This document shows positions 4,401-33,340 of a DNA stretch of 45,024 nucleotides, one piece after another; position 1 is the stretch's first letter, and each line of letters starts with the position of its first letter. Made by a program: the position numbers and the translations under genes. The DNA lies in assembly GCA_025455045.1 (NCBI GenBank), contig JALONJ010000027.1, forward strand, positions 1 to 45,024. The letters are read 5' to 3'. The notes below the pieces were generated by a model. It saw nothing but the letters and a program-made list of their open reading frames with translations. It did not search any database and was not told where the DNA came from. Source of the DNA: Microscillaceae bacterium. Lineage in GTDB: Bacteria > Bacteroidota > Bacteroidia > Cytophagales > Microscillaceae.

Positions 4401-5087
4401 GAAGCACTGATAAGCTTGGTACAACGCGACTATCGTTGGGTCAATATTTGGACCAAAGCCTGCGCACTATATGAACTATTGCAAGGCAAAAATCTTCCCG
4501 ACAATCAAATATTTGCCGCCAACTTGCCCAATCCCGAAGTAGTTTTGCGCGAAATTGCAAGCAAAGCCCTCCAAAAACTCAACGGCAATGAATACAAAGC
4601 CCAATATCAGCCTATTTATCGACAAAAACGCTACGCTTTTGTGGAAGAAACCATCAATCAAATAAGCGAAGAAGTGCTGAATGAAGATGTGCCGAACTTA
4701 AAATTTGAAATTGCTAAATTTTTCCAAGAAATACCCGGATTTAGTCGAATTCCCGGGTTAATATTGGCAAGAATTGCGGCACATACCGAAATTATCTCAG
4801 CCGAAGCCGGACAAATCATTGTCGAAAACCTTGAAATTTGGAAAATGGATTATTATGCCGTTTATTCCGGCGAAGTAGTTTTGCAACAAAACCAAGTAGC
4901 CCTTGCCAAATTTTTGCCCAAAACGCTGATTCATAGTTTGCCCTACATTCCTGAAAATCAGGCAAATATCACTTTACAAGCCCAAACTTCGGCAATTCTT
5001 TATCGGATTCCACAGGCTGAGTTGCACGAATTGATGTCGTTTTATGAAGAAATCCCCATTTCATTGTTAGCAATAGACAAGGCTTAA
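1497..5087 (+). CDS. Large membrane protein: transporter-like N-terminus, HEAT-like repeats, C-terminal cNMP-binding-like domain
   Basis: 1196 residues in three parts. Residues about 1-430 hold roughly a dozen hydrophobic segments resembling the ATP/ADP-translocase-like or MFS-like fold found fused to HEAT repeats in Bacteroidota and cyanobacteria. Residues about 470-1050 are helical repeats of HEAT type (for example EIIQIRIVQIYGLIGSEQAI). Residues about 1060-1190 resemble a cyclic-nucleotide-binding beta-roll (IPGLILARIAAHTEIISAEAG, YAVYSGEVVL) but without a clear phosphate-binding cassette arginine, so ligand binding is doubtful. The start at 1497 is chosen because the ATG at 1493 is out of frame. 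Transport function is inferred from related architectures and the substrate is unknown; a sensor or scaffold role is equally possible. Confidence 0.8.
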   Translation: MKEISISQKRTTLFIWGGLIGLSLAFYNLTTLGLFFQQLSRAEFLQAMIGAGIAGMILYRIFAFFQLYSSIYNVGLIFLGFISLFLAGYWLAYETAASGSAWRQMALMGGLLGLIPINNLLNLIFWGTTERILTTEEFKTNRDWINGGWLAMQVLAWVLIALLLNQWTLTNGMGLILSAAFGFSVFVGFIYLGGQFPYLKHIITNPQYVHAHNSWDKLYKKSYFLYLAGLTSLASILILSIDYLFFVFTQHNYFNSQTKVFEINKFVRFLGLWSAFALIAGFALRFWAYRPIVRNYGLRVGMLVLPMALGFFCLVILGLSLSYSSDEKILTATILFMLLVICKLIREIVYEGLQVPIYRVYLLPIDSELRLDIQLRLDGFWANLGLILGASMLYLMLEVEANLWLPIIFGITVALTLVLVVWYLHEAYKKELQSVLSKNQGKTLISEKGKYVTLEEKILDNIRRVPVKNINLHLNILRILNPLVYKTAILRLLDTPEQKIQSLLRNSNQNIQAVVDFTNKKVRDLSVSKDTNEIALALYRKTRQLANERSKQSMIKDEKLENLIFYVDEKVRQIAIDGKMYNLNTGSTYGREDSETEFFVKQIAEELDLKIYQTATQLFKDIQHLTLDINEPLLRTALFEAQKWCILEAIPLLYILINSKYYAVLHNAELVQKTYELLRGAEYRLERIKYIQQLTFSKLENERIFGALLTAYASDEYKPQLLNQLFQDESYWVKYYSLIATAHSEAPELQNILIDRLANPLFSNLAFAILTASGEKVLNALESAFYMTGQKEIIQIRIVQIYGLIGSEQAIEFLLRKINYSNQNVRAMVIEMLSKCGLGIPQKYRRNISQEIENTCEALVWNMSVYLDLERVNSEETLLKAMKSEIDNNYTQIFDLMMLIYDSQSVEIVRENVNSGNADKADFAGELLDIFLEDTTKPLLIPLLNTADYATKVAQTQYIFPTEPLKPEEALISLVQRDYRWVNIWTKACALYELLQGKNLPDNQIFAANLPNPEVVLREIASKALQKLNGNEYKAQYQPIYRQKRYAFVEETINQISEEVLNEDVPNLKFEIAKFFQEIPGFSRIPGLILARIAAHTEIISAEAGQIIVENLEIWKMDYYAVYSGEVVLQQNQVALAKFLPKTLIHSLPYIPENQANITLQAQTSAILYRIPQAELHELMSFYEEIPISLLAIDKA

Positions 5088-5109
5088 GGAATAAATCAGT
5101 AAAAAATTG

Positions 5110-5134
5110 TAACTATCTGACTATCAATTAGTTA
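5110..5134. repeat. Near-perfect copy of the 25-bp palindrome
   Basis: TAACT, ATC, TGACTATCA, ATT, AGTTA, with the outer arms extended to TGTAACT/AGTTACA. The copy lies between the convergent ends of the large membrane protein gene and the small gene on the minus strand, and could serve as a bidirectional terminator as well as a member of the family. Confidence 0.75.
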
Positions 5135-5480
5135 CATTTTTTACTTCTTCAACAATAGACTCACCTTGCGAAAAATCGCCCGATGTCCATTGCCAAACTT
5201 CGTGCAAACGGATGCGCCCGTCTGCCAAAATTTCGGGTGTCGAATGGCATTTGCCAGTCATAAATTCACCGTTTTGATTGAGGTGTTGGTAAAGCATCTC
5301 CAAGTTGTCTTCGGCATCTACTTTGGCAATCAAAGTTCCGATTTCGATACCACCGCCGCTATAATTTGCCCATACGCGGTCATTGACTTGGTGATAATAA
5401 AAAGTAGTATCGCCATTGACTTCGCCATTGGGGGTATTTTGGACGGACTTAAAAATTCGGTGGTTATAATCAATGCGCAT
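5124..5480 (-). CDS. Small conserved protein of the family often labelled 'n-acetylglutamate synthase'
   Basis: 118 residues. The sequence has the pattern I associate with a compact Bacteroidota/Firmicutes family frequently auto-named n-acetylglutamate synthase: FYYHQ followed by VWANYSGGGIEIGTLIAKVD, then LYQHLNQNGEFMTGKC, ending in RLHEVWQWTSGDFSQGESIVEE. There is no acetyltransferase (GNAT) signature, so the enzymatic label is doubtful; the fold is more probably a small all-beta domain. Its 3' end overlaps the arm of a dispersed palindrome, and another palindrome (core 5519) lies about 40 bp upstream of the ATG. It appears monocistronic. Recognition of the family is from sequence pattern; the function is unknown. 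Confidence 0.75.
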   Translation of the reverse strand: MRIDYNHRIFKSVQNTPNGEVNGDTTFYYHQVNDRVWANYSGGGIEIGTLIAKVDAEDNLEMLYQHLNQNGEFMTGKCHSTPEILADGRIRLHEVWQWTSGDFSQGESIVEEVKNVTN

Positions 5481-5553
5481 AAAAAATTAATCAGTATTAA
5501 AAAAAAATCATAACTCATTGATAATCAATAGATTATAAAAATGACTGCTAGAC

Positions 5554-6167
5554 TCATTCCTCATTCAAATGCGAAGGTTTGAAACCCACCGAATTGCTAT
5601 TGGCTTTGGCGATGAGTTTGTTGGTCGTTTCGTCCAGTTTATCAAATACTTCGGTAAACATCGTGGCAATCATTTCAAATCGCTTGTCGTAAACCGTGAT
5701 TTTTTGCTTAAAATCCTGATTTTCTTTGACCAAATCATCGTGGCGGCGCACCAATAATTTATGCTCGGCTTGTAATTCATAGTATAAGTTGGCTAATTGT
5801 GGATTCTTCTTTGGAAATTTTCAAATGCTCTAGCAATTGCAATTCCTACCGCAATCGCTCGGTCAGAGCGCAAAATAAAAGCCAAAGTCAAAGCCCCCGC
5901 ATACGTATATACATAAGGAGCAATGGGCGAAAACCTGATTTTTGCCAAATGCTCATAGTTTTGGGCAAGAAATGATTGCTCATCTTTGGTGAGTTGGAAA
6001 CGAAAATCATCAGGAAACCTTTGAATGTTTCTTTTCACTCTCTCATTAAGATGTCCGGTTTCTACTTCAAAAAAAATTGCCAAATCGGTATCGGTCATCA
6101 CTGAAGCCTCTCGAATTTGAATAATTCGATTTTCAACTTCCTCCACTTTTACGATTTCATATTCCAT
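5554..6167 (-). pseudogene. ORF6N-domain protein gene split by a frameshift
   Basis: The first 124 codons (6167 to about 5800) encode an ORF6N domain, a phage-type DNA-binding or antirepressor-associated domain: VMTDTDLAIFFEVETGHLNE, VKRNIQRFPDDFRFQLTKDE. The frame then hits a stop at 5793-5795 just after ENFQRRIHN. One frame over, the protein continues as KNPQLANLYYELQAEHKLL and on to VRRHDDLVKENQDFKQK, ending at 5554 with NSVGFKPSHLNEE, the expected coiled C-terminus. Restoring one A (CAAAGAAG to CAAAAGAAG near 5808) joins the halves. The intact paralogue at 7038-7619 supports this. The lesion could be a real mutation or an assembly error in a short A run. A perfect 25-bp palindrome lies 21 bp upstream of the ATG. 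Confidence 0.8.
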
Positions 6168-6188
6168 TTTAAAGGTCAGTTTTAGAGG

Positions 6189-6213
6189 AGGTTATCGCAA
6201 TTTGCGATAACCT
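6189..6213. promoter_or_regulatory. Perfect 25-bp palindrome, arm AGGTTATCGCAA
   Basis: Two 12-nt arms (AGGTTATCGCAA and its complement) flank one central T. It lies 21 bp upstream of the ORF6N gene start, on the promoter or leader side, which suits an operator; no T-run follows on either strand, so a terminator is less likely. The same arms recur at 6379-6407. Confidence 0.7.
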
Positions 6214-6378
6214 TTATAAAAATTTAGGTATTCAAATTTACAAAAAATCGCGCATAAAAAACTTAAATTTTGAACATAATTAATCTACTCGGCAAAAAAA
6301 GGTAATTTAGAATGTTTTTTTGATAAATATTTAAACAATAATTAAAATTATTAGATTTTAATTACACTTTCATTTTGC

Positions 6379-6407
6379 CGAGGTTATCGCAAATTGCGAT
6401 AACCTCG
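6379..6407. promoter_or_regulatory. Second palindrome, 29 bp, same 12-nt arms
   Basis: CG plus the arm AGGTTATCGCAA, a central A, then the exact complement plus CG. The core 25 bp equals the copy at 6189 except for the central base, which is its complement. The two centres are 192 bp apart. Two identical long palindromes in one divergent control region suggest a paired operator for a dimeric regulator. Confidence 0.7.
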
Positions 6408-6601
6408 TAGCAAATTAAAACAATCTAAATAACTTTTCAAAAGAATCTTAACTTAACTAACTAGATTAAAAATTTCTTTGAAAGTATTTTTTATTCTGTT
6501 TAAAAAAAATATTTTAAAAATTTATTGCTAAATATTTGGAAATAAAAAGTATTGTATCTTTATTTGAAAGTAAATTTTACTTACAAAGTAATTTTTAAAT
6601 T

Positions 6602-6916
6602 ATGAAAAAGAAAGAGTTTGTAAATAACCTATCCGACTTAGCCCCGATGCTCGACCCCGAAAACGTAGTAACGGAGTATCGATTGCCCAAAGATTTTAAA
6701 GAAAAAACCGGGATGGATGCCCGCCGATTTTGGCATTTGTGGAAAAACCCCGAGGAGCAAATGACCTTGCCCGAAGCCCAAGCCTTAGCCGAGTATTTTT
6801 CGGATACTTCGGGTAAAAGTATTAATATGACCGATTTTTTTGCGGAAAAAGGCAATGATACAAGCATTGAAGACGTGTTTAGCGCGCGCGAAGCCAAGAA
6901 AAAGAAAGAAGACTAA
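6602..6916 (+). CDS. Small HTH-like protein, paralogue A
   Basis: 104 residues. Residues about 30-85 read like a short helix-turn-helix domain: LPKDFKEKTGMDARRFWHLW, then MTLPEAQALAEYFSDTSG and INMTDFF, the pattern seen in small XRE-like proteins where a helical DNA-binding unit is followed by an '(E/D)A..IAEYF' helix. It shares this layout with the 7795-8079 product (FTEETGIQPKRLMSILNNVK, SLDEAVIIAEMLSKKYG), so the two are paralogues. The C-terminus is very basic (REAKKKKED). It is transcribed away from the ORF6N pseudogene across the double-palindrome region and is followed by a likely terminator. DNA binding is inferred from the pattern only. Confidence 0.7.
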   Translation: MKKKEFVNNLSDLAPMLDPENVVTEYRLPKDFKEKTGMDARRFWHLWKNPEEQMTLPEAQALAEYFSDTSGKSINMTDFFAEKGNDTSIEDVFSAREAKKKKED

Positions 6917-6939
6917 ACCCCTGCCACCGACCCAGGCAA

Positions 6940-6970
6940 AGCTCCTCATAGTAGGTGGGGAGTTTTTTTT
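6940..6970 (+). terminator. Intrinsic terminator after small HTH-like gene A
   Basis: CTCCTCA pairs with TGGGGAG and is followed by eight T. Just before it (6919-6932) lies CCCTGCCACCGACC, a 14-mer found again at 8157-8170. Confidence 0.65.
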
Positions 6971-7037
6971 GAAATTTTGTAAGTAGTTGATTGTCAGGCA
7001 TTTTCTAGAGGTAATCATTTGTATTGCTCACCTCGAC

Positions 7038-7619
7038 TCATTTATCTTCAGAATTTGCTTTAAACTCAAAACCAATTTTATTAAAAGGTTTAACCTTGTT
7101 TTCTTCAAGGTCTTTCAATTTATGAAATATTGCCTCAAAACGCACATTATCATATTCTTCTCGTAGTTGAGATTCGGAGAACTGTCTTTGCAAATTGGCG
7201 AATTTTACTTTTAAAACGTCTATTTCTTCTCGTAAACTTTTCTGTTGAAATTTCTCAATTAATAAAGCATCAAATAAGCGAATAATTTGAAGGTGAATTT
7301 GTTTGGCTTTGCTGGTTCTGAGTACAGTAGGTATCATATATACGCCTAATCGAGTATAAGCGTAAGGGAGATAGCGCGAATATTTAATACTATCGAGGTG
7401 ACCATTTGAAATGGTCACCTCCATTTTCTCATCTTTGGTAAGTTGAAACACGAAATCTTCTGGGAAAAGTTCAGGGTTATTTTTTACATTTTGGTTAAGA
7501 TCTGAAGTTTCTATCCCATAAAAATCAGCCAAAGTTCTATCAATTATCACCGAAACTCCTCTTAATTCTATAACTAAGGACTCAAATTCCTCCCGTAAAA
7601 TGACTCGATTTTCTTCCAT
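7038..7619 (-). CDS. ORF6N-domain DNA-binding protein
   Basis: 193 residues. The N-terminal 100 residues are an ORF6N domain (VIIDRTLADFYGIETSDLNQ, VKNNPELFPEDFVFQLTKDE, then the AYTRLGVYMIPTVLRTSKAK helix region). Residues 110-175 are coiled coil (EEIDVLKVKFANLQRQFSES) and the end is FNKIGFEFKANSEDK. ORF6N domains occur in phage antirepressor/KilA-N-type proteins and in many Bacteroidota chromosomal copies, and are thought to bind DNA. It is the intact relative of the frameshifted gene at 5554-6167. It is divergent from the HTH-like gene at 7795, repeating the arrangement next door. A dispersed palindrome (core 7638) sits 18 bp upstream of the ATG. Confidence 0.8.
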   Translation of the reverse strand: MEENRVILREEFESLVIELRGVSVIIDRTLADFYGIETSDLNQNVKNNPELFPEDFVFQLTKDEKMEVTISNGHLDSIKYSRYLPYAYTRLGVYMIPTVLRTSKAKQIHLQIIRLFDALLIEKFQQKSLREEIDVLKVKFANLQRQFSESQLREEYDNVRFEAIFHKLKDLEENKVKPFNKIGFEFKANSEDK

Positions 7620-7794
7620 TTAGATTATTTAATTAATTGATTATCAATGAGTTAAAACTTATAAATATACTAAATGCTACCTGTTTTGGCAAATATTAAC
7701 TATAAAGTTTTTTACAAATTTTCGTAAATAATTTGGATATTCCAAAAAATAATTTTTCCTTTGAATAAATTATTCGGAAGAAAAATTTAAAAAT

Positions 7795-8079
7795 ATGAAA
7801 AAGTTTAAAAATGCAATTGTAGATGTAATTGCAAAATACGAACCAGAGAATATTCAAGTTACCTATAATTTGGCGAATTCGGAAGAAAAAGAATTTTCTT
7901 ATAAAAATGTAAAAGAATTTACTGAAGAAACTGGGATTCAGCCTAAAAGATTGATGTCTATTTTAAATAATGTAAAAGTTGTTTCATTAGACGAAGCCGT
8001 GATTATAGCGGAAATGCTATCAAAAAAATATGGAATGGAAATCAAAGCTACAGATTTGATAAAAGAAGTAAAAGAATAG
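7795..8079 (+). CDS. Small HTH-like protein, paralogue B
   Basis: 94 residues. The central part (FTEETGIQPKRLMSILNNVK followed by SLDEAVIIAEMLSKKYG and IKATDLI) has the same layout as the product of 6602-6916 and resembles a compact helix-turn-helix unit. It is transcribed divergently from the intact ORF6N gene, with a 175-bp shared control region that contains a dispersed palindrome but not the AGGTTATCGCAA palindrome of the first pair. A further palindrome (core 8098) begins 18 bp after the stop. DNA binding is inferred. A toxin-antitoxin-like relationship to the ORF6N partner is possible but not shown. Confidence 0.7.
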   Translation: MKKFKNAIVDVIAKYEPENIQVTYNLANSEEKEFSYKNVKEFTEETGIQPKRLMSILNNVKVVSLDEAVIIAEMLSKKYGMEIKATDLIKEVKE

Positions 8080-8153
8080 ATTATCTAAATAAAATTTTGA
8101 TTATCAACGACTTATTAAATGATACAAATAACTTAACCCCCCTAAAAAGCAAA

Positions 8154-8185
8154 AAGCCCTGCCACCGACCAAAGTTACAAGGCTT
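8154..8185 (-). other. Hairpin containing the GCCACCGAC sequence
   Basis: AAGCC (8154-8158) pairs with GGCTT (8181-8185) around CTGCCACCGACC. On the minus strand the stem is followed by TTTTTGCTTTTT, so a minus-strand terminator is possible, although no minus-strand gene ends here. It is also the leader of the 8221 gene. The 14-mer is shared with 6919-6932. Confidence 0.4.
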
Positions 8186-8220
8186 GATTGCTCAATTTCA
8201 GAATGTTAACTCTTAAAATT

Positions 8221-9645
8221 ATGAATACAAATATATCGCAAAAAGAACAAAAAGACAAATTATTTGCCTTAAACAAAGAGGCATTTGTTGCTGCTTTACT
8301 ATCAGCCAGACCCCAAGATTACCAAGAACGCAACTGGTTTTATCACGTATTGAGTGTCGTGATTAGCTATCCCTTACAATTTATTTCAATTTTGGCGGGA
8401 GCCTACCTACTGTTTGATATTGCACGTTTTGTGTGGCAACTCGACGTGTATTCAGCCGGCGGAACGGCGATTTTGGGGCTGTGCTTTCTTATTTTTTTTA
8501 GCATTGAGTCCTTGCGCCGTTGGCTGGTCAATACGGCGGGTTATCATTATTTGGCAACTTTTAGGATTCAAAACGGGCAAATGATGGCGGGCGAGTGGCT
8601 AGTTACCAAAGTGTATATTTTGGCATTTATTTCTTTGGTTTTGATTAGCAGTGGCACTACCGGCACTTATTTGTATATCAAACACAGCGCGCCCGAAGCC
8701 AAAACCATTGATATTCAGCAAGTTACTTCGCCTTTGGTGCAAAAAACCCAACAAGAACGCCAAAGCCTGACCCGCTTGGACAAAGACATTCAAAATTTGA
8801 TGAATGCCAAAAAAACCGAACTAGCCGACTACAAAAGCTACCAAGTGTGGCAAGGCAAAGAATATTTGTTGCCCGAAGTCAAAGAACGCCACACCAATTA
8901 TGACAAACAAATTGCCGAAATGAACCGCCAACGCCAACTGCATCAAAAACAATTGGCAAATTTTGAAGACCGCCTCAATCATAAAGAGCAAAAAACCGAA
9001 GCCGAAAACGAAAAAATCATTGGCGAAAATCAGTTGAGCAAAGAAACTTATGCTGCGATTTCGGCAGGAATTTGGTTGGTTTTTGAGATTCTATTAGTAT
9101 TTATGCTCTCTTATAGCTGGGTGTATAAATTGGGCGTAAAGCGCGAAGTATTGCTCAATCAAGTAGAATGGCAGGCGCAAAATGCTGATAATCAGAAGGT
9201 TAAGAATTATAACCCAAAAGTTCAAAACTTCAATGCCCCACAAACTTCGGGTTTTCAGTTTTTTCAAAATGAAGCAGATGATATGGCAGTCGAGAGTCAA
9301 CAATCGACAGTCGACCAATCTAAAACCATTGGATTTGAAAAATGGTATGAAAAACCCCGTCCTTCCCAAAAAGAAACAGCCAATCACCCAAGCCAATCTT
9401 TGCCGGAAACAAGTAAGGAATTGCCCCAAATTGTGATTAAAGAAGTGCCGGTTTTTAAAGAAATCTACATTGAGCGAGAAGTGCCGGTAGAAGTAATCAA
9501 AACACAAGTAATTGATAATGAGGGTTTTATGGTTACTTGCTCACACTGCGGCAAAACCGAACACAAAAAACGCCCCGCCAAATTTTGCAGTGATGGGTGT
9601 AGGAATCGGGCTTGGAAAGAGAAAAAACTCAGCGCAATTGCCTGA
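8221..9645 (+). CDS. Membrane protein with coiled coil and C-terminal zinc-knuckle
   Basis: About 474 residues from the ATG at 8221; an in-frame TTG at 8188 is less likely. Hydrophobic segments near residues 42-75, 80-105 and 130-155 are followed by a long soluble coiled-coil stretch (QQERQSLTRLDKDIQNLMNA and on), another membrane segment (AGIWLVFEILLVFMLSYSW), and a Pro/Gln-rich linker. The C-terminus is a zinc-knuckle, CSHCGKTE then KFCSDGCRNRAW, of the CxxC...CxxxC type. The architecture resembles membrane proteins of mobile elements, but I do not recognise the family. One palindrome (core 9186) encodes ADNQ in the linker, and another (core 9643) supplies the TGA stop codon itself. Confidence 0.7.
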   Translation: MNTNISQKEQKDKLFALNKEAFVAALLSARPQDYQERNWFYHVLSVVISYPLQFISILAGAYLLFDIARFVWQLDVYSAGGTAILGLCFLIFFSIESLRRWLVNTAGYHYLATFRIQNGQMMAGEWLVTKVYILAFISLVLISSGTTGTYLYIKHSAPEAKTIDIQQVTSPLVQKTQQERQSLTRLDKDIQNLMNAKKTELADYKSYQVWQGKEYLLPEVKERHTNYDKQIAEMNRQRQLHQKQLANFEDRLNHKEQKTEAENEKIIGENQLSKETYAAISAGIWLVFEILLVFMLSYSWVYKLGVKREVLLNQVEWQAQNADNQKVKNYNPKVQNFNAPQTSGFQFFQNEADDMAVESQQSTVDQSKTIGFEKWYEKPRPSQKETANHPSQSLPETSKELPQIVIKEVPVFKEIYIEREVPVEVIKTQVIDNEGFMVTCSHCGKTEHKKRPAKFCSDGCRNRAWKEKKLSAIA

Positions 9646-28877: not shown

Positions 28878-29621
28878 ATGAACACTCGAATTATCGCAGT
28901 TGTCAATCACAAAGGCGGAGTAGGCAAAACCACCACTACGCTCAACTTGGGCAAGGCTTTGGCACTCCAAAAACACAAGGTATTGATTGTGGACTCCGAC
29001 CCGCAGGCAAACCTTTCGCAATCATTAAAAATTGAAGACCCCAAAAAAGACATTTATCACGCATTGGTTGAGAAAGAAAAATTGCCGATTGTCAAAATTG
29101 ACAAAAACTTTGATATAGTTCCGGCAAGTTTGGATTTGTCGGGCGCAGAGTCAAAACTGATAATGGACGTAAATGGCTACTTCCGCCTCAAAGAAGCCCT
29201 GAAGCCCGTTACGGAGAAATACGATTATATTTTGGTTGATTGCCCGCCGAGCTTGGGTATTCTTACCATCAATGCCCTCATTGCTTGTACTGAAGTGATG
29301 ATTGCCATTCAGTCGCAGTATTTGGCTATCAAAGGTTTGAATACAATTTTGGAATTGGTAGAAGAACTTCGCAAAAACCTCAACCCCTACCTCCGAGTTG
29401 CCGGAATGTTGCTCACCCAAGTCAATCGGACGGTAGTGAGCAAAAACATTGTGGAATCAGTCCAAAAAACCCACAAAGAAAAAGTATTCCAAACCGTAAT
29501 TCGCCAAAATGTAGCCATTACCGAAGCCTCTACCGTAGGGCAAGATATTTTTACTTATGCACCCGACTCTATGGCGGCAGACGATTATAGAAACTTGGCT
29601 TTGGAAGTTTCAAAGTCATAA
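28878..29621 (+). CDS. parA: ParA-family partition ATPase
   Basis: 247 residues, the length of short ParA/Soj proteins without an N-terminal HTH. The deviant Walker A is VNHKGGVGKTTTTLNLGKAL, the A' box VDSDPQANLSQSL, and the Walker B YILVDCPPSLGILT. It binds ATP, dimerises on DNA and moves ParB-parS complexes. It is 54 bp upstream of a ParB-domain gene. Because the chromosomal parAB usually encodes a typical Spo0J-type ParB, and this partner looks plasmid- or phage-like, this may be a second system of mobile-element origin. A palindrome (core 29627) starts 5 bp after the stop. Confidence 0.93.
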   Translation: MNTRIIAVVNHKGGVGKTTTTLNLGKALALQKHKVLIVDSDPQANLSQSLKIEDPKKDIYHALVEKEKLPIVKIDKNFDIVPASLDLSGAESKLIMDVNGYFRLKEALKPVTEKYDYILVDCPPSLGILTINALIACTEVMIAIQSQYLAIKGLNTILELVEELRKNLNPYLRVAGMLLTQVNRTVVSKNIVESVQKTHKEKVFQTVIRQNVAITEASTVGQDIFTYAPDSMAADDYRNLALEVSKS

Positions 29622-29675
29622 TAGCCTGATTATCAATTTTATATAAATTCTGTTTTTTACTATAATATCAATCCA

Positions 29676-30623
29676 ATGAAAGCAAAAAATACCGCCAAAA
29701 AAAAAGATTTTAGCAATGTAATCAACTCAGCCGTAGCCCAAGCCAAAACATTTGAAGATATTGTCAAAGAAAACATTGTTATCCTGCCGGAATTAAAAGC
29801 CTTTATTCCTCCGCTTTCGGAAGAAGAATTTGCCCATTTGAGCGAGAGTATCATCAATGAAGGCTGTAGAGATGCCCTGATACTTTGGCAAAGGGAAAAA
29901 GAAGAAGGGTTGGAATATGTAATTGTGGACGGGCATAATCGGTACGCAATCTGTGAAGAAAACAACGTAGAATTCAAATTTATAGTCCGTGAGTTTGATA
30001 ATCTTGAGCAAGTCAAAGATTGGATGATTTTGAATCAATTGGGTAAGCGCAATATCACCGAACTGACTAAATCGTTTTTACGCGGCACAAGATATGAACT
30101 TGAGAAACAAAAAAACAAAAACGTAAGCAACCTAAAGCAATTTCAAACCGAGGGGGACAAAATGTCCTCTTCGGGAAAAACCTCCGAAAAACTAGCCGAA
30201 GAGTTTAATGTATCCGAAAAAACCATCAAGCGCGATGCCGAATACGCGCGCGCGGTCAATGCCATTGCCCAAGGTGATGATGTATTGAAATGGAAAATCT
30301 TAAACAAAGAAGTTGATTTGCCCAAAAATTACTTAGTCGAAGTCGTCGAGAAAGGCGAACTTGCAATACAAGAACTTCGGGCGATGCTTGTGGCTGGCAA
30401 AGGTCTCAATCAAGTTGAGGAAAACAAAATCGAAACTAAAACCGGCAAAACCACTACCAAAGTTGATACCGGCAAATTTGTAATCGATGATTTAAAACCT
30501 TTCCAAAGCAATATTTATCAAGCCGTGAGAGAAGTAATGAGCAAACAAGATGAAGATTCAATTGAAAAATTGAAAACCCGAGTAGATGAATTGGCAAAAG
30601 AGGTTAAGAAGCGGAAAAATTAA
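29676..30623 (+). CDS. ParB-N-domain protein of plasmid/phage type
   Basis: 315 residues. The ParB/Srx-like N-terminal domain spans about residues 40-130 (LSESIINEGCRDALILWQRE, EYVIVDGHNRYAICEENN, VKDWMILNQLGKRNITEL). A helix-turn-helix follows (LAEEFNVSEKTIKRDAEYAR), then a charged C-terminal half. The usual Spo0J motif GERRxRA is replaced by DGHNRY, as in ParB-like proteins of plasmids and integrative elements, some of which are nucleases or regulators. It is probably co-transcribed with parA. The pair could segregate DNA or regulate an integrated element. A 33-bp palindrome downstream (30737-30769) is a possible site of action. Confidence 0.85.
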   Translation: MKAKNTAKKKDFSNVINSAVAQAKTFEDIVKENIVILPELKAFIPPLSEEEFAHLSESIINEGCRDALILWQREKEEGLEYVIVDGHNRYAICEENNVEFKFIVREFDNLEQVKDWMILNQLGKRNITELTKSFLRGTRYELEKQKNKNVSNLKQFQTEGDKMSSSGKTSEKLAEEFNVSEKTIKRDAEYARAVNAIAQGDDVLKWKILNKEVDLPKNYLVEVVEKGELAIQELRAMLVAGKGLNQVEENKIETKTGKTTTKVDTGKFVIDDLKPFQSNIYQAVREVMSKQDEDSIEKLKTRVDELAKEVKKRKN

Positions 30624-31599: not shown

Positions 31600-32994
31600 C
31601 TAAATGGTTTTGCCTTCTTTGAGCAATTGTTTGCGCAAACCGTCTTTGAAATCTTCGTAACTCACCAACTTATCTTCGCGGTCGAGGCACATCACCGCAC
31701 AATGCAGTTGCACATTTTTGATTGCCGCGCCCGTGATTACATACTTGCGCGCAGTTTCGGTCAAATCGATGCGGGAGTCTAATTGAAATTGCTGAGAAAA
31801 CGCCTTTTGCCAAAGCAACAATCGAGAGTGTTCGCTAGGTATGCCAAAATAAACTTCGGCTTGGAATCGCCGGATAAAAGCCTTGTCCAAATTTGACCTT
31901 AAGTTGGTTGCCAAAATCAAAATACCCGGATGTTCTTCAATTTTTTGTAACAAAAAAGCAGTTTCTTGATTGGCATAGCGGTCATTGGAACTTTTGGCAT
32001 CGGTTCGTTTGCCAAAAAGGGCATCGCCTTCGTCAAAAAACAAAACCCAATCGCGGTACTTAGCCATTTCAAAGATGGCATTGAGGTTTTTTTCGGTTTC
32101 ACCAATGTATTTTGATACGATTTTGGCTAAGTCGATACGATATACTTCTAAGCCCAATTCCTTGCCCAAAAGCTTGGTAGTGAGGGTCTTACCCGTACCT
32201 GACTCACCATAAAACAAACAACGAAAGCCGCGCAACTCACGCCCCAGCCAAGGGTCAGCCATCAAAGTTTTATAATTTCTTACCCAAGCCCGCACCTCTT
32301 GAATGTCTTGAAAAGTGTCATAGTCCAAGACCAAATCTGCCCAATCCAACTGAGTTTCAATGCGATTTGCCGGAAAATTGGAACTATATTGGGGTTCGTA
32401 AGGCTCGCCGGTGGTGAGGTGTTTGAGGTATTCATCGGTAATAAACAACTGCCCGCTCAACAGGGGTTCACTATTGGGCGAGTTTTCCAAGCGCAAAATA
32501 TTGTGGCGATTGAAAAAATGGCGAGGATGAAAAATCGATTGAAACTCAAATCGAAGTTCCAAATTGCTACCGGCTAAAATAAACATTGCTGTTTCGCCGG
32601 TTGGCAAAAACCCTTTATGATGTACTCCCCGCACTCCCCCAAACTCGGTAAAATCGCGGTTGTATTCGTTTTGATGGAAAAAAATATCAAGCAATTGCGG
32701 GCGCACGTGAGGCACCAAAGCCAACATCAACACTACGCGCTCGGCTAGGTAACGACAAGCCAACCACTCATTTTGATAAGATTGGGCGGTTTCTTCATAC
32801 AAACTTTGTAGTAACTGCCCAAAAAGTGAATTATCAGTAGGCAATGGCGGTATTTGACTCAATAAAAAATCAAAAGTTATCGCCGGTTTTTGTTGGTGAT
32901 ATTCAGCACGTTTATACAAAAATTGCTCAAACCAAGCCAGCTCTTGGTCTAAAGCCAGCGAATTTTGGAGCAGTTTGGGCGAAATAGACAGCAT
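31600..32994 (-). CDS. AAA+ ATPase with family-specific N-terminal region
   Basis: About 464 residues from ATG 32994; the frame extends back to 33060 without another ATG. The first 250 residues are an unrecognised helical and beta region typical of ATPases encoded with contractile injection systems and phage-tail-like clusters. The AAA+ module follows: Walker A GESGTGKTLTTKLLG, Walker B WVLFFDEGDALFG, sensor-1 GILILATNLRSNLD and arginine-finger FIRRFQAEVYF, then a small helical lid (GAAIKNVQLHCAVM). It probably remodels protein complexes in the cytosol. No tail or sheath genes are nearby, so the association with an injection system is only a family inference. A -7-like TAGATTTG lies at 33078-33071 on the minus strand. 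Confidence 0.88.
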   Translation of the reverse strand: MLSISPKLLQNSLALDQELAWFEQFLYKRAEYHQQKPAITFDFLLSQIPPLPTDNSLFGQLLQSLYEETAQSYQNEWLACRYLAERVVLMLALVPHVRPQLLDIFFHQNEYNRDFTEFGGVRGVHHKGFLPTGETAMFILAGSNLELRFEFQSIFHPRHFFNRHNILRLENSPNSEPLLSGQLFITDEYLKHLTTGEPYEPQYSSNFPANRIETQLDWADLVLDYDTFQDIQEVRAWVRNYKTLMADPWLGRELRGFRCLFYGESGTGKTLTTKLLGKELGLEVYRIDLAKIVSKYIGETEKNLNAIFEMAKYRDWVLFFDEGDALFGKRTDAKSSNDRYANQETAFLLQKIEEHPGILILATNLRSNLDKAFIRRFQAEVYFGIPSEHSRLLLWQKAFSQQFQLDSRIDLTETARKYVITGAAIKNVQLHCAVMCLDREDKLVSYEDFKDGLRKQLLKEGKTI

Positions 32995-33340
32995 AAAATA
33001 AGGAGCAAATAATTTAAGGGCTGAATTGGCATATAGTTGATGAGAAAATGGGCGCACCAATTTTTTTAAACAAATCTATGACCAGCCGAGCAAATATAAA
33101 TAAAAGTTGGGAATTTGAAATTAAATATCTGATAATGAATAGGTTATAGTTCAAAAAAGTAAAGCATTTGATTTGAAAAGAAATATTTAATCATTACACC
33201 TTTTGAAAAAAATGTTCAGAAAGGGAATTTTAAATCAAAAAAGTCTAAAAAAGTGTCAATAAATTTACAAAAGATACGTTTTATTTTTAACTTTATACAA
33301 GCGAGTTTTTAATTTCTAATCATTCAAAACAAATCTCTTT

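Follow-up and report, generated by a model that had tools for sequence, protein, structure and literature searches.

Palindromic candidate operators in and before the ORF6N genes of a two-module locus in a Microscillaceae bacterium

The stretch of DNA considered here, hereafter the window, is the whole 45,024-nucleotide contig JALONJ010000027.1 of a Microscillaceae bacterium (assembly GCA_025455045.1), one contig (C298) of a 6.8 Mb draft genome in 697 contigs. Two modules lie in series within it, each made of an ORF6N gene on the minus strand that diverges from a small helix-turn-helix (HTH)-like gene on the plus strand, and a gene for a membrane/zinc-finger protein lies beyond the second module (Table 1). 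An initial annotation had described this order as duplicated, with paralogous partners on both sides, and the open reading frames (ORFs) and pairwise identities agree: the N-terminal parts of ORF6N1 and ORF6N2 are 38% identical over 125 amino acids (aa; E 1e-26), and the two small proteins are 30% identical over 91 aa (E 1e-10). Both ORF6N proteins score above the Pfam cut-off of 27.8 bits for PF10543. The main interest of the locus, however, lies in a palindrome that ORF6N genes carry as a family. Neither the palindromes nor the membrane/zinc-finger gene figured in the initial annotation.

Table 1. Genes and sequence elements of the ORF6N locus, in coordinates of the window.
Feature	Position	Strand	Remarks
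ORF6N gene 1 (ORF6N1), N-terminal part	5793-6167	-	124 aa; ORF6N domain; Pfam PF10543 79.2 bits; PADLOC PDC-S05
ORF6N gene 1, C-terminal part	5554-5754	-	66 aa; coiled-coil-like by eye; end ...SVGFKPSHLNEE; -1 frame to N-terminal part
Small HTH-like gene 1 (HTH1)	6602-6916	+	104 aa
ORF6N gene 2 (ORF6N2)	7038-7619	-	193 aa; end ...NKIGFEFKANSEDK; Pfam 82.6 bits; PDC-S05 E 3.2e-42
Small HTH-like gene 2	7795-8079	+	94 aa
Membrane/zinc-finger gene	8188-9645	+	probable start 8221 (by eye); conserved partner of the locus
Palindrome GAGGTTATCGCAATTTGCGATAACCT	6188-6213		centre 34 nt before ORF6N1 start
Second palindrome GAGGTTATCGCAAATTGCGATAACCTC	6380-6406		shared ORF6N1-HTH1 intergenic region; ~195 nt before HTH1 start
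Palindrome inside ORF6N2 coding sequence	7392-7424		two 16-nt arms, one mismatch, 1-nt centre; core ATTTCAAAT
TAAATTTG box, possible ORF6N1 promoter	6233-6240	-	fits TAnnTTTG; just upstream of palindrome 6188-6213
Imperfect GAGGT-N17-ACCTC element, candidate	7008-7034		between convergent 3' ends

Repeat analysis of positions 5000-8800 found GAGGTTATCGCAA(A/T)TTGCGATAACCT twice in the spacer between ORF6N1 and HTH1 and, within the coding part of ORF6N2, a palindrome of 33 nt. The locus shows both forms of the palindrome, the internal one in ORF6N2 and the upstream one before ORF6N1. The ORF6N2 palindrome occupies the same place as in most ORF6N genes, and none of 200 synonymous versions of the gene has one as long. 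ORF6N1 has an internal palindrome with an arm of 7 and is not among the genes that beat all their synonymous versions. The -7 promoter consensus of Bacteroidota is TAnnTTTG, and the first spacer palindrome has its centre 39 nt downstream of the start of the TAAATTTG box (read from 6240 to 6233), so that this palindrome would fall in the early transcribed region.

Palindromes of this type recur across the ORF6N family, with arms mostly of 12-19 nt, a core that is usually CAAWTTG and one place in the coding sequence; the centre falls at nucleotides 150-294 of the open frame, mostly at 190-260 (44 genes). In 61 distinct ORF6N genes, a set that includes close relatives and 29 loci (L110-L138) fetched as best matches to the palindrome-bearing ORF6N2, the longest palindrome with a one-nucleotide centre in the tested segment has arms of 11.8 nt on average. 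Synonymous versions of the same proteins average 6.0, and 41 of the genes, ORF6N2 included, beat all 200 of theirs. Arms of at least 12 nt occur in 42 of the 61 and in none of 94 other ORFs of the same loci. A second set, of unseen genes ranking highest by ORF6N domain score across 395 genomes of the phylum, gave 24 of 29 ORF6N genes against 0 of 65 control ORFs. Under a looser criterion (arm of at least 10, centre of up to 3 nt) the figures are 47/61 for ORF6N genes and 9/112 for other ORFs in the loci of the first set; among plasmids and phages they are 13/16 and 2/36, one of the two other ORFs being an annotated KilA-N gene. The four plasmid or phage copies from other phyla, namely those of Treponema saccharophilum, Sulfuricurvum kujiense, Haliovirga abyssi and Butyrivibrio proteoclasticus, also pass the looser criterion, and that of Treponema alone (L225) passes the strict one. 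On an Alistipes indistinctus plasmid (L223, 193-1005), a KilA-N gene located two genes before an ORF6N gene is itself interrupted by no stop but contains a perfect palindrome of 32 nt among its codons; the rule may extend to KilA-N or related domains.

The association also holds at the scale of whole genomes. The 15-mer core RTCRCAAWTTGYGAY was found in all 19 ORF6N genomes searched (71 sites) and in 2 of 18 genomes without ORF6N (one site each), while the reversed pattern gave 0 and 3 sites. Of these 73 core sites 72 could be placed: 46 fall in the coding sequence of an ORF6N gene, another 13 precede such a gene by at most 250 nt (by 27-67 nt in 11 cases), 3 follow one within 1 kb, and the remaining 10, including the two in genomes without ORF6N, are located elsewhere. 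Among the orphan loci, L216, L205 and L207 have palindromes longer than the core (lengths judged by eye); at the remaining loci only the bare core is matched, and it lies in some other gene. At L216 a perfect 27-nt palindrome of ORF6N type lies in an intergenic region near position 2466, with no ORF6N gene in the ~2.4 kb fetched on each side. At L207 (2462-2502) two such palindromes lie directly upstream of a Fic-like gene (by eye), beside integrase-like genes; the same two-palindrome layout is found before some ORF6N genes.

The palindrome is evidently kept by selection on the DNA, beyond what the protein sequence needs, because its arms covary, it is read in two frames, it brings no inserted residues and it is tied to ORF6N genes genome-wide. 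The covariation score of the arms (39/44 windows) is 0.585. After shuffling it is 0.157, with no shuffle out of 500 reaching the observed value, and sliding the partner columns gives 0.07-0.14; cells changed on both sides number 133 versus 43. Reading frames were compared in 87 palindrome-bearing genes from a set of 120, a proportion that is biased since the set includes loci fetched for holding the motif; the fair counts are those of the two sets above (42/61 and 24/29). The palindrome centre falls at codon position 1 in 65 of the genes (e.g. RSQIVTS) and at position 2 in 22 (e.g. VVTNCDHL). In a midpoint-rooted tree one large clade is filled by position-1 genes, and those with position 2 branch outside this clade or at its base. 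Of the 87 genes, 4 depart from a simple inside/outside split, and three of these 4 branch basally in the large clade; one position-1 gene (L029) is nested in a position-2 clade.

Reading in two frames would also be expected of a small selfish palindrome inserting into ORF6N genes and their flanks. Rickettsia palindromic elements are palindromes that lie within coding genes in different frames, as the ORF6N palindromes do. The copies away from ORF6N genes (L216, L207 and L205) would suit such mobility, and so would the identity over 27 nt between the spacer palindrome at 6380-6406 and the internal palindrome of an ORF6N gene of another family, on L118 (G325). Unlike the Rickettsia elements, however, the ORF6N palindromes are tied to one gene family and one position. 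Two protein anchors lie 36 residues apart at the median both in genes with the palindrome (41) and in those without it (18; the anchors were not found in 2 of the 61), and the extra residues that mark a palindromic insertion element are not seen in ORF6N. Moreover, ORF6N genes and the 1 kb on either side of them hold 62 of the 72 placed sites, and the arms differ from gene to gene with compensating changes instead of being copies of one sequence. A mobile element is thus an unlikely account of the palindromes. The REP elements and the GTAG- and CGTC-tagged repeats, as described in the accessible part of PMC3733652, are likewise short palindromes; the ORF6N core differs in having 1-10 matches per tested ORF6N genome, most of them intragenic.

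Recombination offers another explanation, in which the palindromes would let tandem ORF6N genes swap halves or be gained and lost. Tandem ORF6N genes do occur, in G652, in G326 and in a plasmid record of Parabacteroides distasonis (L221, 316-2049), where two of three genes in a row have internal palindromes that differ in sequence. On L128, a shortened gene contains a second palindrome, and integrases, some annotated and some recognized by eye, lie near some copies. Single-copy ORF6N genes carry the palindrome too, however, and a Pfam scan of 29 window ORF entries detected no recombinase family. Recombination sites are accordingly considered quite improbable.

On balance, and judging from sequence, this is probably a regulatory locus of Microscillaceae-type bacteria in which ORF6N proteins would bind the palindromes as dimers and control their own transcription. 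The palindrome is predicted to be an operator for ORF6N itself because it is a dyad with a conserved A/T centre, because it occurs both within the gene and before its start, and because the domain is known from phage regulators. In the proposed scheme, one or two ORF6N genes would face a transcription unit made of the membrane/zinc-finger gene, with or without the HTH-like gene. A palindromic site would lie in the codons of the gene's own ORF6N domain, or ~20-70 nt before the domain start, or at both places, and an ORF6N dimer bound there would regulate its own transcription through a pair of intragenic and promoter-proximal operators. Two palindromes in the ORF6N1-HTH1 spacer would let ORF6N act on the divergent promoter too, and the second of them could couple the divergent genes. 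The lac O2 site is an intragenic operator, and the likeness is that an operator-like palindrome lies in coding sequence with another near the promoter. The ORF6N palindrome differs in that it occupies the codons of the presumed DNA-binding domain itself, family-wide and in two reading frames.

Several observations weigh against autoregulation through these sites. No internal palindrome with an arm of at least 12 is present in 19 of the 61 ORF6N genes. These include 9 of the 11 genes from the window's own bacterial family, in which only 2 have such arms, and only some of the genes lacking an internal palindrome have an upstream one. The core of the ORF6N2 palindrome is not the usual CAAWTTG. 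Some palindromes lie away from ORF6N genes, as at L216 and, before the Fic-like gene, at L207. Two of the five covariation measures are unremarkable, the pairs changed on both sides (13; 31/500 shuffles) and the further pair types (34; 99/500). The spacing between the -7 box and the upstream palindromes varies, and many of these palindromes have no such box. In 16 pairs compared at ten positions, the upstream and internal palindromes of one gene resemble each other no better than shuffled ones at d4-d5, with a modest match at d7-d8 (p 0.04 and 0.002). Within-gene matching was set aside as weak, and a code of one protein for one sequence is not supported since the two palindromes agree only modestly and that inside ORF6N2 has another core.

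The mismatches within the arms bear on a different possibility, that of an RNA hairpin in the ORF6N mRNA controlling its translation or decay. GT/TG mismatches (11 of 37) are slightly above AC/CA (7 of 37), numbers too few to exclude a hairpin, yet there is no clear wobble excess. Palindromes in coding sequence and in a presumed leader can fold as hairpins, and the -7-like box upstream of the ORF6N1 palindrome is in keeping with such a leader. Against this, the loop positions are themselves symmetric and conserved (CAAWTTG). We hold an RNA hairpin to be improbable, and return to DNA operators bound by ORF6N. If the site is indeed held by selection at the DNA level, through local changes of reading frame, operator and regulator would travel as one piece between genomes. 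ORF6N proteins might then be self-marking regulators, each with a recognition site inside the part of its gene that encodes the DNA-binding domain and frequently with a further copy ahead of the start codon; this broader proposal is put forward tentatively.

The genes around the ORF6N pair have their own conservation. The named relatives are Cytophagales/Microscillaceae or unplaced Bacteroidetes metagenome-assembled genomes (MAGs). A search for the divergent pair in other genomes, as suggested in the initial annotation, found the same ORF6N/small-gene arrangement in the Microscillaceae MAG SM2_1_3 (G009; JAAUUB010000118), so that a conserved neighbourhood exists. The protein encoded at 8188-9645 combines a coiled coil with several hydrophobic segments and, in its C-terminal part, a zinc-finger-like CxxC...CxxxC motif (topology by eye), and its profile finds strong relatives (at least 368 bits) in 9 genomes of the bacterial family. 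The small gene precedes the membrane/zinc-finger gene in all 4 genomes with strong relatives of it: directly in G000 (small gene 2), G006 and G014, and with one intervening gene on the opposite strand in G009. ORF6N is divergent to the membrane-protein gene within ~1.2 kb in 6 of 9 genomes (G000, G001, G003, G004, G009 and G012), and in G001, G003, G004 and G012 this occurs without the small gene. Conversely, G006 and G014 have the small gene with no adjacent ORF6N, which lies on another contig, as it does in G002, where the membrane-protein gene is at a contig end. No ORF6N was found in flanks of up to 1.5 kb at 21 loci (L088-L108) with weaker matches, mostly outside the family. No relative of the membrane protein was found in plasmids, or in viral contigs searched with two short peptide patterns, which distant relatives can escape.

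The conserved unit is therefore ORF6N / (HTH) / membrane protein, because the small gene precedes the membrane gene in 4/4 genomes and ORF6N is divergent to the membrane gene in 6/9; the HTH-like gene is part of the membrane-protein unit and the pair is not a toxin-antitoxin module. Thus, of the earlier proposal that the pair is a functional regulatory unit, the conserved neighbourhood stands and a regulatory role fits, but the pair itself is not the unit, as the small gene accompanies ORF6N in only 2 of 4 genomes. An [IVM]G[FY] motif is present in the last 45 residues of 46 out of 56 ORF6N proteins of at least 150 aa, versus 3 of 70 control ORFs. It also precedes the finger in 7 of 9 membrane proteins, that of the window carrying TIGFEKW. 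This shared motif hints at a common binding partner.

It had been suggested that the ORF6N/HTH pair is a toxin-antitoxin module or a phage antirepressor/regulator pair. In favour, the divergent pair recurs in G009, ORF6N is a domain of phage antirepressors (PHROG matches), and small protein 2 weakly matches the PADLOC model PDC-M10B (E 0.002). However, no toxin-like domain scores above the curated cut-off in Pfam or NCBIfam, and PADLOC returns only PDC-S05 and the weak PDC-M10B match, so that no recognisable type II toxin is found; besides, these genes are divergent, unlike the adjacent co-oriented operon of type II systems. Nor do the window ORF6N proteins have a KilAC/Ant C-terminal domain (Pfam up to E 1). 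The HTH-like gene keeps to the membrane-protein gene and not to ORF6N, and it is nearly absent from the class, where ORF6N is common: 152 of 395 genomes of the class match ORF6N2, and the Pfam domain is matched in 117 of 395 from the phylum. A phage origin of the two genes found no backing either: a single search of viral contigs and a single one of plasmids gave no relative of the small gene, and the other contigs from relatives with which this region has genes in common showed no phage genes by eye. Both readings were dropped as very unlikely.

The label 'HTH-like' for the small genes is plausible but weak. The proteins match no Pfam or NCBIfam family above cut-off, small protein 2 reaching 17.1 bits for HigA against a cut-off of 47.7. 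For small protein 1 AlphaFold gives a mostly helical model (mean pLDDT 70.8), which Foldseek matches to lambda-repressor-like domains only at E of at least 0.4 (best E 0.41). Strong relatives (E <= 1e-29) are present in 4 of 15 genomes of the bacterial family, G000 (twice), G006, G009 and G014, with weak matches in three more; across 395 genomes of the class there is one weak match besides the window genome. The scan of viral contigs used two short peptide patterns, which distant relatives can escape. Just before HTH1, AAAGTAAATTTTACTTACAAAGTAA at 6563-6591 may be an operator for the small regulator itself, and CCCTGCCACCGACC recurs after each small gene (6919-6932 and 8157-8170).

As the initial annotation had noted, a single frameshift splits ORF6N1 while its small partner is intact. 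The N-terminal frame stops at 5793-5795, and the two frames overlap at about 5793-5822. The letters at 5814-5820, A AAT TTC, form a slippery-type heptamer in the right frame, so that the split may stem from programmed -1 frameshifting as well as from a true indel or an error of assembly. No relative was seen with the same arrangement. In the ORF6N tree both window copies sit on long branches without support, which leaves their sisterhood unresolved; tandem duplication in place is accordingly not established and was dropped as the origin of the modules. The single-sequence fold of ORF6N2 (pLDDT 50.0) was set aside, and solved structures gave no ORF6N match (best E 0.13).

TTGATTATCAA(Y)NANTTA-type repeats are present at 5117-5134, 5511-5535, 7637-7654 and 8097-8114. 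With at most one mismatch, the pattern has 2,025 plus-strand and 1,993 minus-strand matches in the 6.8 Mb genome, while the reversed pattern has 1 and 0; these repeats are a very large dispersed family. The TTGATTATCAATGAGTTA repeats flanking the modules were dropped as module boundaries, since ~2,000 genome-wide matches per strand mean that they are not specific to the locus. Farther along the window (28878-30623 and 31600-33060) a ParA-like gene is followed by a ParB-like gene (by reading), and there is also a gene for an AAA ATPase that matches the IetA models of PADLOC. In G006 the vicinity of the HTH/membrane-protein unit holds relatives of the AAA gene and of the ParB-like gene; in G002 the ParA/ParB pair has relatives next to ORF6N. 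A link to contractile-injection-type systems was considered from look-alikes (by eye), which G014 has close to the membrane-protein gene and G006 close to ORF6N; no scanned window ORF was identified as such, and the idea was dropped.

Among known systems, the PADLOC PDC-S05 models match both window ORF6N proteins (best E 2.3e-38 and 3.2e-42). PDC-S05 is a single-gene phage-defence candidate, so that with a profile match as the likeness, protection would be only a candidate role here. We know of no established mechanism for ORF6N phage-defence candidates. PDC-S05 was counted 3275 times in rumen genomes, in a paper whose accessible part mentions no palindrome (PMC13356809); the ORF6N genes described here carry them. 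ORF6N phage antirepressors, such as PHROG 4792 or, according to the accessible part of PMC6591296, ORF172 of phage FNU1, share their N-terminal domain with the window proteins, which differ in having, instead of KilAC, a short C-terminus with an IGF-type motif. A literature search found no report of palindromes in ORF6N genes, although most subscription literature lay outside it and a report could exist. ORF6N never appeared with inverted repeat, nor KilA-N, palindrome and operator together, and the palindrome strings themselves were not found; where ORF6N and palindromes did occur in one text, the palindromes were those of CRISPR.

The coding sequence of these genes is unusual, in that a constraint at the DNA level appears strong enough to keep the same letters in two reading frames. 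A conserved palindrome in or before ORF6N genes would provide a concrete DNA target for these proteins, as well as a motif with which the genes they may regulate can be sought, such as the Fic-like gene on L207.

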